Of a DNA stretch of 64,000 bases, positions 49,351-52,450 are shown in pieces (the stretch's first letter is position 1; every line of letters begins with the position of its first letter). Both the position numbers and the translations under genes were made by a program. The notes beneath the pieces were generated by a model. It saw nothing but the letters and a program-made list of their open reading frames with translations. It did not search any database and was not told the DNA's origin. Source of the DNA: Aeromicrobium chenweiae (GTDB lineage Bacteria; Actinomycetota; Actinomycetes; Propionibacteriales; Nocardioidaceae); NCBI RefSeq assembly GCF_003065605.1, contig NZ_CP026952.1, positions 992,001 to 1,056,000 on the forward strand. The letters run 5' to 3'.

Positions 49351-50337
49351 ATGCCTGCTGTGAGCGTGACCGACTGGACCGTCCTTCCCCGCGTGGGGGC
49401 GCTCCCCACGCAGCGCGAGGACCGAGCTCCGATCAGCGTGACCACAGCGCCCGTGGGGTACGAGGGCGAGGGCTTTCCGGTGCACCGCGCGTTCGCGGGC
49501 GTCGACCCGGCCAGGCTCGACCCGTTCATCCACATGGACCAGATGGGTGAGGTGGACTACGCCCCGGGGGAGCCCAAGGGGACGCCGTGGCACCCGCACC
49601 GCGGCTTCGAGACCGTGACGTACATGATCGACGGCGTCATGGACCACCAGGACACGCACGGTGGCGGCGGGTCGATCTCCGACGGCGACACGCAGTGGAT
49701 GACCGCCGGGAGCGGGCTGCTGCACATCGAGACACCGCCGGAGTGGCTCGTCACGAGCGGTGGGCTGTTCCACGGGCTCCAGCTCTGGGTCAACCTCCCG
49801 CGCGCCGACAAGTGGCTGCCGCCGCACTACCAGGACATCCGCGGAGGCGACGTGGGCCTGGCCTCCACGGCGGACGCCGGCGCGCTCCTGCGGGTCATCG
49901 CCGGGGAGGTCGACGGGGTGAAGGGCCCGGGATCGACGCACACGCCGATGGCGATGGTGCACGCGACGCTCCTGCCCGGAGCGGAGATGACCGTGCCGTG
50001 GCGAACGGACTTCAACGCCCTCGTCTACGTCATGGCCGGATCCGGCCACGTGGGCGGCGAGCGGCGTCCGATCCGGGCGGGGCAGCTCGCCGTCCTCGAC
50101 CACGGCGAGACCATCACGGTGGGCGCCGACCAGCAGCAGGACGGCCGGACCCCCGCGCTCGAGGTGGTGCTGCTCGGTGGGCTGCCCATCCGGGAGCCGA
50201 TCGCCTGGGCCGGCCCGTTCGTCATGAACACCAAGGCGGAGGTCGTGCAGGCGTTCGAGGACTTCCGCAAGGGGCGCCTCGGCACCATCCCGACGGTCCC
50301 GCACGCGGACCTGCACGGGGAGATGCTGCAGGACTAG
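49351..50337 (+). CDS. Pirin family protein
   Basis: 328 residues from ATG 49351. Pirin N-terminal cupin signatures: DPFIHMDQMGEVDYAPGEPK, GTPWHPHRGFETVTYMIDG (His-x-His metal ligands), MDHQDTHGGGGSISDGDTQW and MTAGSGLLHIETP. The C-terminal cupin follows from about 195. Bacterial pirins bind Fe or Mn and can act as quercetin 2,3-dioxygenases or redox regulators. Its stop overlaps the stop of the convergent Ser-repeat gene (CTAG). Confidence 0.9.
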   Translation: MPAVSVTDWTVLPRVGALPTQREDRAPISVTTAPVGYEGEGFPVHRAFAGVDPARLDPFIHMDQMGEVDYAPGEPKGTPWHPHRGFETVTYMIDGVMDHQDTHGGGGSISDGDTQWMTAGSGLLHIETPPEWLVTSGGLFHGLQLWVNLPRADKWLPPHYQDIRGGDVGLASTADAGALLRVIAGEVDGVKGPGSTHTPMAMVHATLLPGAEMTVPWRTDFNALVYVMAGSGHVGGERRPIRAGQLAVLDHGETITVGADQQQDGRTPALEVVLLGGLPIREPIAWAGPFVMNTKAEVVQAFEDFRKGRLGTIPTVPHADLHGEMLQD

Positions 50338-50585
50338 CGGCGCGTCCCCGCCGCGAACCGGCCGCCGCGTGAGCGCCACGAGAACGCAGACCTCACGCTC
50401 ACGGCGCTGAAGGCCGAGAGCACCGAGGCGAACGAGGCGAACGACAGCACCGAGGCGAACGAGGCCGCGGAGCCGATCGAGAGCACCGAGCGGCTCGACC
50501 CGATCGACAGGATCGAGCGGTCGGACCCGATCGACAGGATCGACCCGGTCGACCGGTAGGACAGGATCGACCGCTCGGCCCTCAT
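50334..50585 (-). CDS. Ser-x-x triplet-repeat small protein
   Basis: 83 residues from ATG 50585. After MRAER, residues 6-74 are 23 consecutive triplets that each begin with serine (SIL SYR STG SIL SIG SDR and so on, ending SAF SWR SRG), then GRFAAGTRR. Positions 2 and 3 of each triplet are mostly hydrophobic (I, L, V, F, A) or G. At DNA level part of it repeats with a 27-base period. Its start overlaps the stop of the histidine phosphatase as ATGA, so it is translated with that gene. A three-residue period suggests a regular rod or ladder structure rather than a globular fold. No function known to me. Confidence 0.72.
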   Translation of the reverse strand: MRAERSILSYRSTGSILSIGSDRSILSIGSSRSVLSIGSAASFASVLSFASFASVLSAFSAVSVRSAFSWRSRGGRFAAGTRR

Positions 50586-51247
50586 GCGTCCTCCCGCTCG
50601 ACCGCGGGGCTGTGGTCGGAGGCGACGCCCCTGGCGGCGGCTTCGCTGACCGACTCGCCCAGCCACGCGGTGACCTCCCAGCCGTCCTTGCTCGAGCCCT
50701 CGACGACGACGATCCCCGTGTTGACGACGTAGTGCGTGCTGACGAACTCGAGGTCGACGTTGAGGGTTCGCGCGGCGCACCAGGCCCGGATGATCGCGCC
50801 GTGGCTCACCAGCGCCACGCTGCCCACCCCGAGCTCCTCGGCCTCGGCGACGACCTCGTCGAACCGGGCGATGACCTCCTCGCCGGTCTCGCCTCCCGGC
50901 ATTCGGACGTCCAGGTGGCCGCCGCACCAGGTCAGCAACGTCGAGACGTACTGGTGGACCGAGGCCTCGTCGGTGTTGCCCTCCACGTCCCCGGCCGAGA
51001 TCTCCTGCAGCCCGGGGCGCACGATCGGCTCGAGGCCGCGGTCGGCGGCCAGGGGAGCGGCCGTCAGGTGGGTGCGCACCATGGACGAGACGAACAGGGC
51101 GTCGATCGTGTCGCCGGACAGGGCGTCGACCAGCTCCTCGGCCTGCTCGTGCCCCAGCTCGGTGAGGCCGGGCCCAGGGACGGTGGACTCGAGGATGCCC
51201 TCGACGTTGGCCGGTGTCTGGCCGTGACGGATGAGGATCAGGCGCAT
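50582..51247 (-). CDS. Histidine phosphatase family protein
   Basis: 221 residues from ATG 51247. LILIRHGQTPANVEGIL is the phosphoglycerate-mutase/phosphatase signature with the phospho-accepting His of RHG; the second His lies in LVSHGAIIRAW. GPGLTELGHEQAEELVDAL and FVSSMVRTHLTAAPLA are typical. The substrate is unknown. It is the upstream partner of the Ser-x-x repeat gene (4-base overlap) and divergent from the glycerol-kinase-like gene. Confidence 0.9.
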   Translation of the reverse strand: MRLILIRHGQTPANVEGILESTVPGPGLTELGHEQAEELVDALSGDTIDALFVSSMVRTHLTAAPLAADRGLEPIVRPGLQEISAGDVEGNTDEASVHQYVSTLLTWCGGHLDVRMPGGETGEEVIARFDEVVAEAEELGVGSVALVSHGAIIRAWCAARTLNVDLEFVSTHYVVNTGIVVVEGSSKDGWEVTAWLGESVSEAAARGVASDHSPAVEREDA

Positions 51248-51310: not shown

Positions 51311-52450
51311 ATGGCGAAGTTCGTGGGCGCGATCGACCAGGGCACGACCAGCACGCGGTTCATGATCTTCGACCACGACGGGCACGAGGTGGCGCGCCAC
51401 CAGCTCGGGCACGAGCAGATCCGGCCGCAGGACGGCTGGGTCGAGCACGATCCGCACGAGATCTGGGAGGCGACCCAGGACGTCGTCGAGGGCGCGCTCG
51501 GACGGGCCGGGATCACCGCGGACGACCTGGCGGCCGTCGGCATCACGAACCAGCGGGAGACCGTCGTCGTGTGGGACCGGCGCACCGGCGAGCCCTACTG
51601 CCACGCGATCGTGTGGCAGGACACCCGCACGGAGGCCACGGTCGCAGGCAGGATCCGGTGGGTCCTCGACAACGTCGAGGACGTCCGTCCCGATGCGAAC
51701 GCCGGCCACGCGATCCTCGGGACGATGGACAGCTGGCTCATCTGGTGGCTGACGGGCGGTCCCGACGGCGGTCGGCACGTCACGGACGTGACGAACGCCG
51801 CCCGCACGATGCTGATGGACCTCGAGACGCTGGACTGGGACGACGACCTGCTCGCGCGGCTCGAGATCCCCCGGTCGATGCTGCCGGAGGTCCGCTCGTC
51901 GTCGGAGGTGTACGGCACGACCAGCGCGGACAGCCCGTTCGGCGGGGAGGTGCCCGTCGCGGGGGACCTGGCCGACCGGCAGGCGGCACTGGTCGGCCAG
52001 GTGTGCTTCCGGCCCGGTGACCTCCGGAGCAGCCGCGGCGCCGAGGACCTCCTGGTGCTCAACACCGGCACGGACGTCGTCCGGTCGAGCACCGGGTCGG
52101 CGACGACCGTGGCGTACCGGCTGGGCGACGCGCCTGCGGTCTACGCGCTCGAGGCGGTCGGTGGCGGTCCGGACGCCATCGACGCGATGGTCGCCGCTGC
52201 GGGCCTGGACCTTGCCGTGCTCCGCGTCGACGGGACAGCGACGTCCGACGATCAGTCGATGCAGGTGCTCGCCGACGTCCTCGGCGTCCCGGTCAGCCGT
52301 CCCGTCGTCGGAGAGACCGCGACGCTCGGCGCCGCGTACGCCGCGGGACTGGCCGTGGGGTTCTGGTCCGGCACCGACGAGCTGGTCGCCCGGTGGAAGG
52401 AGTCGAGGCGTTGGGAGCCGGCGGCCGGCCAGGGGAAGAGGGTCGACTGA
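51311..52450 (+). CDS. Shortened glycerol-kinase-like FGGY protein, probably not a normal kinase
   Basis: 379 residues from ATG 51311; GlpK is about 500. The start ([19 protein letters not shown]) and [40 protein letters not shown] and [20 protein letters not shown] follow GlpK closely. About 27 residues are missing after [16 protein letters not shown], and about 95 after YALEAVGGG, where GlpK has the domain-2 ATP-site region. GDQQAALFGQ is [10 protein letters not shown] and the NTYGTGCF phosphate loop is SSRGAEDL. The frame is intact and the end ([21 protein letters not shown]) is conserved, so it is an expressed paralogue with damaged catalytic parts rather than a frameshifted gene. glpD follows. 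Confidence 0.85.

Follow-up and report, generated by a model that had tools for sequence, protein, structure and literature searches.

The RTX nonapeptide β-roll is built from a GGxGxDxUx unit in which GGxGxD forms a calcium-binding turn. Collagen-like proteins repeat Gly-x-y with a strict period of three and are rich in proline, and left-handed β-helix hexapeptide proteins and pentapeptide repeat proteins have periods of six and five. Short repeats also serve as substrates for modification: TvgA, the precursor of poly-cyclopropylglycine, has a TVGG unit and is encoded, along with a dedicated radical-SAM enzyme, in a cluster of five genes (PMC9062424). A small serine-rich protein from Aeromicrobium chenweiae, encoded in the 64,000-nucleotide stretch of DNA analyzed here (the window), and its relatives resemble each of these systems in part. 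They share with RTX proteins a nine-residue unit with a putative short strand and a Gly-containing turn, a likeness that suggests two repeats per coil, but their consensus, S-h-h-S-h-G-S-h-G, lacks the GGxGxD calcium motif and has a serine lattice instead; the RTX family was absent from the Pfam and NCBIfam matches of the serine proteins. Collagen has the same strict period of three, whereas the serine family has Ser in place of Gly and almost no Pro. The left-handed β-helix and pentapeptide proteins are likewise short-period solenoids with aliphatic core positions, but the period of the serine family is nine and neither group appeared among its Pfam matches. TvgA is also a small peptide with short Val-containing repeats, but no comparable radical-SAM cluster was seen at the serine loci. 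The nearest family by profile is HxsA4 (NCBIfam NF038313), which, judged by its name, has Ser at each third residue; its His-Xaa-Ser pattern does not occur in the serine-lattice family. The features of the locus are as follows.

50334..50585, (-) strand: gene for the serine-lattice protein, 83 aa, stop codon within the coordinates; assigned from the ORF, its homologs, and purifying selection
50364..50570, (-) strand: 23 unbroken Ser-x-x triplets, residues 6-74, from a six-frame scan; the nonapeptide period comes from the family
50586..50599, (-) strand: Shine-Dalgarno-like GGGAGGA stretch upstream of the ATG, within the end of the phosphatase gene
50582..51247, (-) strand: histidine phosphatase (branch 1) gene, Pfam PF00300 with E 7e-41, its stop codon overlapping the start of the serine gene as ATGA; the adjacency is probably incidental
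49351..50337, (+) strand: gene for a pirin-like protein (Pfam Pirin and Pirin_C), convergent with the serine gene, whose 3' end it overlaps by 4 bases (gap -4)

The reverse-strand ORF at 50334-50585 encodes MRAERSILSYRSTGSILSIGSDRSILSIGSSRSVLSIGSAASFASVLSFASFASVLSAFSAVSVRSAFSWRSRGGRFAAGTRR. It starts with ATG behind the Shine-Dalgarno-like GGGAGGA and overlaps the stop codon of the phosphatase gene as ATGA. Serine occupies 23/23 positions 6, 9 ... 72, and this one phase holds 23 of the 24 serines in the protein. The sequence-only reading had described serine at every third residue from 6 to 74 without exception, and this is correct: among 100,000 shuffles of the protein's own composition, the in-phase run never exceeded 10, and a six-frame scan of the window found no second run of at least seven Ser-x-x triplets. 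The same reading had filled the other two positions with I, L, V, F, A, and G; these do occur there, but so do R, Y, T, D, S, and W. The first half of the protein consists of nonapeptides of the form S-[IVF]-L-S-I-G-S-x-G, the second half is richer in A, F, and L and reaches a Kyte-Doolittle value of 1.85, and the C-terminal end is short, basic, and of the WRxR type.

By its codons, substitution pattern, and frames, the ORF is a genuine protein-coding gene, and on this sequence evidence the earlier expectation of real translation is upheld. The in-phase serines include 263 AGY (AGC or AGT) codons among 2372, and 95 of 105 distinct homologs have at least one, which argues for selection on the amino acid serine itself. 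Each of the five other reading frames is interrupted in 31-88 of the 105 homologs. Nei-Gojobori omega, computed for 17 of 19 listed homolog pairs, ranged from 0.03 to 0.45 with a median of 0.115 among these close pairs; all 17 indicate purifying selection, and the value for the window gene and its counterpart in the Aeromicrobium genome G038, 0.415, is among the highest. An alternative is that no such protein exists and that the ORF is either a 9-bp DNA repeat or the reverse of an acidic antisense frame. The DNA does show tandem periodicity of 9, 18, and 27 bases, and an antisense frame with Asp or Glu at each third residue is open across most of the window repeat; a TCN every nine bases yields such acidic residues. 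Against the AGY serines, the low omega values, the frames broken in many homologs, and promoter-like boxes whose distance to the start is fixed, the chance that this alternative is correct is practically negligible.

These boxes precede many of the family's genes. A -10-like [TC]A...T box lies at -11 to -14 from the start of 51/83 non-Nocardia genes (mean 2.3 in windows further upstream), a count inflated by the choice of start codons with a score that favors TA...T boxes; the form [TC]A[GC][AG][AC]T, which is less affected by that scoring, was found at 25/63 ATG starts against 0.2 in the background. In many homologs the box, some 6-7 bases ahead of the start, is often not TANNNT but CAGRAT or CACAAT. 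None of 46 Nocardia genes has the box at -11 to -14, and 38/46 have GTGGTARAC beginning at -16 or -17. Leaderless mRNAs are common in actinobacteria, and the spacing of the boxes suggests that many members of the family have leaderless starts. An SVG repeat (L174) was left out of the codon, frame, and upstream-box counts, and the upstream set also omits a duplicate (L183) and four loci with a broken frame or SVG/SAG simple repeats (L196, L202, L210, and L211).

The protein belongs to a widespread actinobacterial repeat family with no catalogued family behind it. The serine protein was matched in 10 of 49 Aeromicrobium genomes, its own included (E <= 1e-3), in 49 of 197 genomes of the family sample (E <= 1e-6, with the ten Aeromicrobium carriers counted), and in 34 of 396 genomes of the phylum sample, a number that may be too high, since three of the positives are SVG/SAG simple repeats (L202, L210, and L211) and the loci of four were not fetched. 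A scan of named genomes gave 116 pattern matches and 103 relatives, of which 80 loci were kept (47 from Nocardia and 33 others). These span 23 named genera, all actinobacterial, including Aeromicrobium, Nocardia, Rhodococcus, Streptomyces, Actinoplanes, Salinispora, Janibacter, Terrabacter, Nocardioides, and Blastococcus. The impression that similar proteins occur in other actinobacteria was thus borne out, and the triplet phase, whose conservation had been proposed as a check, is kept in the homologs. The 72 non-redundant members are 79-143 aa long. When 20 of 30 phylum-sample loci were added, all 92 members had 21-32 triplets (median 25) with at least 85% Ser, although members were collected by such runs. 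The loci from more distant actinobacterial lineages (L198, L200, and L203-L209) contain near-perfect SIGSAGSIL nonapeptide arrays, and some of them have a C-terminal membrane-like segment.

Two hand-picked sets hold 38 (A2) and 16 (A3) of the 72 non-redundant members, and a profile of A2 served to assess homology beyond shared composition. Against this profile, with itself left out and near relatives kept, the window protein scored 126.7 bits without composition correction, compared to a maximum of 101.4 in 300 triplet shuffles. Of the members outside the profile, scored with the correction, 45/54 beat all 100 of their own triplet shuffles and 9/54 did not. That the real order of triplets outscores shuffled orders indicates position-specific conservation and not composition alone. 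Four proteins did not rise above their best own triplet shuffle when scored without composition correction, namely those of L203 and L206, which exceed their shuffles once the correction is applied, a Streptomyces plasmid protein, and a protein from Gloeothece verrucosa (WP_013334591.1; plasmid, L213 2447-2743). The last is a 98-aa hypothetical protein with SILSIGSVG nonapeptides like those of the family, but it is cyanobacterial, and given its profile score the resemblance could be convergent.

Searches of other collections returned little. Phage sequences gave no match to the serine protein, and on viral contigs 86 stretches fit the peptide patterns but none was confirmed by tblastn, whose low-complexity filter may mask relatives. 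Plasmids yielded seven weak records (best E 0.06); a longer repeat protein used as query found none at E 0.001, and the Gloeothece protein matched itself alone. The two plasmid-borne examples inspected are annotated solely as hypothetical proteins. No Pfam or NCBIfam family exceeded its cut-off for the serine proteins scanned, and PDB sequences gave 17 weak matches, of which the one to kinesin light chain constructs was best, with E 0.0027. Within the open-access literature searched with repeat strings and descriptive terms, no description of the family was recognized. In PMC2275737, which is not on this family, a repeat string falls inside a signal peptide.

The repeat unit of the family is nine residues, not three. 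In the 72 members, the identity of triplets three apart is 0.214 compared to 0.040 in shuffles (z 34) and that of triplets six apart is 0.094 (z 10), whereas identity lies under expectation at lags of one, two, five, eight, and nine triplets. The strict period of three that had been proposed therefore holds for the serine phase but is incomplete, as it sits inside a nine-residue repeat. At lag nine the value is below the shuffles (z -2.6), which indicates a gradual loss of this order over the length of the block; it is clearest in the N-terminal half, and the C-terminal half is less regular. The family consensus is S-[IVFA]-L-S-[IV]-G-S-[VA]-G, with G, N, or D at position 9. The register was fitted with a score that favors L at position 3 and G, R, or Q at position 6; in it, hydrophobic residues make up 86, 73, 80, and 66% of positions 2, 3, 5, and 8, and Gly about half of positions 6 and 9. 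Only 2 prolines occur among the 4744 non-phase residues of the runs.

Polarity was compared with triplet shuffles after removal of the triplet mean. Power is raised at 160 degrees (1.64 vs. 0.68) and at 40 degrees (2.77 vs. 1.35), reduced at 100 degrees (0.39 vs. 0.96) and at 80 degrees (0.69 vs. 1.12), and without excess at 170 degrees (0.66 vs. 0.66). An amphipathic helix is disfavored by the deficit at 100 degrees. The raised value at 160 degrees fits β-strands, yet this angle is a harmonic of nine and so is not independent of the nine-residue period. Mean Chou-Fasman preference is slightly in favor of β (1.02 vs. 0.94).

The hydrophobicity of the run raises another explanation, in which the Ser-rich run is itself inserted in the membrane, as a small membrane protein or hairpin, with its polar ends and the WRxR tail at the interface. 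The best Kyte-Doolittle window in the run is mostly 1.1-1.85 across the family (lowest 0.69), with the window protein at the top of this range, polar residues gather near both ends of the run, and the basic WRxR end would suit such a placement, as would the additional C-terminal membrane-like segment of some relatives. However, with one residue in three a serine and Gly frequent, insertion as a helix is predicted to be unfavorable: the best 19-residue window has a median summed insertion energy of +3.85 on a simplified scale, with 0/92 members below 0 and 13/92 below 2.5. Helical polarity is below its shuffles, and a period of nine residues that includes a turn-like S-x-G does not mark a helix. 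We consider membrane insertion of the run doubtful.

The ends of the proteins are more varied than the runs. The N-terminal cap is short and often contains Trp or Arg. C-terminal ends are of three kinds: short and mostly basic; an acidic tail in Nocardia and its relatives; and a hydrophobic, helix-like tail. Among the 92 members, 53 have a short basic or other end, 20 a Nocardia-type tail, and 19 a membrane-like C-terminal segment, a class defined by an arbitrary cut-off on a membrane-insertion scale; several of the other ends look hydrophobic too. Lys and Arg are about evenly distributed on the two flanks of the membrane-like segment. Nocardia-type tails have a median net charge of -4, and many end in CHCQT or a similar sequence; this conserved acidic tail, carried for example by the serine-lattice protein at L104 5932-6291, is a possible metal- or protein-binding end.

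A different role would be that of a precursor or substrate peptide whose Ser/Ile/Val repeats would be modified by a radical-SAM enzyme, as in HxsA or the poly-cyclopropylglycine (TVGG) peptides. HxsA4 weakly matched 15/16 A3 members (best E 5.7e-4, 20.7 bits vs. a cut-off of 55 bits), and 4/20 carrier genomes have a SPASM-type radical-SAM match; A. chenweiae is one of the four, its match lying about 2.1 Mb away from the serine gene. There is also precedent for a radical-SAM enzyme acting on precursors with repeats that contain Val (PMC9062424). On the other hand, the window protein did not match HxsA4 up to E 0.1, the radical-SAM partner HxsB (TIGR03978) was not found in its own genome, the one genome searched, and 16/20 carrier genomes had no match in a search that covered the SPASM type. 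No neighbor keeps a fixed place at the serine loci across lineages. A modified-peptide role for the family is unlikely, and we leave it only a slim chance.

The sequence-only reading had also coupled the protein to the adjacent histidine phosphatase and raised the idea of phospho-regulation, in which the serine protein would be a phospho-regulated partner of that enzyme. The ATGA overlap is found in three Aeromicrobium genomes (A. chenweiae, G038, and G036), and in these the phosphatase gene lies immediately upstream of the serine gene. Adjacency is nevertheless absent in seven of the ten Aeromicrobium carriers, and a six-frame scan of 21 Aeromicrobium phosphatase loci found a serine run in 3 and none in 18. 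Of the 14 loci that were read directly downstream, 11 lack the serine gene. One of these is in G048, where a phosphatase 92% identical to that of the window runs straight into the end of the pirin gene; the clean absence there shows that the serine gene is dispensable in that lineage, in keeping with the patchy distribution of the family, and that the tie to the phosphatase is not general. In a fourth genome of the same family (L173, G070) a member of the phosphatase cluster lies five genes away on the opposite strand. The proposed coupling thus did not survive the comparison, phospho-regulation by the neighboring enzyme found no support, and a partnership of the two proteins is highly improbable. 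The phosphatase looks like an incidental neighbor.

Comparison of loci across families found no gene in a fixed place beside the serine gene, although settings are stable within lineages: in 46/47 Nocardia loci, with a setting mostly common to two Rhodococcus and one Antrihabitans loci; in four Hoyosella/Lolliginicoccus loci; and in three Winogradskya/Nucisporomicrobium loci. In five Nocardioides-type loci a single small gene on the same strand lies shortly upstream of the serine gene, directly adjacent to it in four. In two genomes (G033 and G021) the serine gene stands just before a gene for a carotenoid-type oxidoreductase, whose homolog in the window is three genes downstream (a weak, sub-cut-off assignment). 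The neighbors in a Nocardia example are a GT87 glycosyltransferase and an Rv2525c-like hydrolase, which offer a faint hint of a role in the envelope. Two linked gene clusters, which we take to be ECF-sigma-like and YCII-like, recur no more than five genes away from the serine gene; this holds for seven loci (L101, L103, L146, and L169-L172) from two lineages, at varying distance and on varying strands. This recurrence runs against the absence of a partner but may be a coincidence of multi-copy genes. Elsewhere in the window, a glycerol kinase gene at 51311-52450 (+) encodes 379 aa compared to 503-509 aa in three relatives, with a fourth relative of 249 aa situated close to the end of its contig. 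Its matches to the family models fall into separate stretches; the gene appears to be internally deleted and is perhaps a decaying or altered copy.

The reading that we prefer, with a probability of about 0.4, is that the family comprises small self-assembling or scaffolding proteins that form a β-roll or cross-β rod, which some members would anchor to the membrane. The repeats would fold as a compact β-solenoid of the β-roll type, in which each nonapeptide contributes a strand of five to six residues (ILSIG) and a turn (S-x-G) and the serines stack in ladders. The solenoid could then stack into a short rod or a cross-β filament that is either cytoplasmic or located at the membrane, to which the C-terminal helix would tether it in some lineages. 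Its job would most likely be structural or scaffolding and not catalytic, and the serine gene would act on its own rather than as a partner of the phosphatase. A rod or ladder with a serine face had been proposed before; it is still the best guess from the periodicity, which is suggestive of a fold and does not define one. Nothing turned up in favor of the ice binding that had been suggested along with it.

This rod draws on several lines of evidence. A nonapeptide with a short strand and an S-x-G turn, the scarcity of Pro, and the limited length together fit a β-roll or cross-β structure with serine ladders; a collagen-like helix, a membrane helix, or a disordered target of phosphorylation would suit them less well. 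The polarity excess at 160 degrees, the deficit at 100 degrees, and the frequency of Gly at positions 6 and 9 are further β-favoring signs, and the narrow size range (21-32 triplets) and order-specific conservation (45/54 members) argue for a defined structure. Other observations point the other way: the matches to PDB sequences are weak, the order of the nonapeptides weakens along the run, power is raised at 40 degrees as well but not at 170 degrees, and the Chou-Fasman preference for β is slight. In addition, residues facing outward from such a roll would make a fairly hydrophobic surface for a soluble protein, and the second half of the window protein, given its Kyte-Doolittle value, would suit a membrane segment.

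A bolder and decidedly tentative proposal is that the family has a repeat fold of a class not seen before, in which nine-residue units build a serine-laddered β structure that would form a tiny rod or filament in many actinobacteria, often from leaderless mRNAs, with membrane tethering in some lineages and a possibly independent appearance in cyanobacteria. One possible form of the laddered structure is an oligomer, intertwined or stacked, in which each repeat supplies three Ser columns. The fixation of one residue at each third position over roughly 60-95 residues is an extreme constraint, and small size and low complexity may explain why the family is absent from annotation. The family poses a simple sequence-to-structure problem. 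If these proteins assemble, they would offer a minimal self-assembling building block; if the proposal is true, they would be an unrecognized structural element of the actinobacterial cell.
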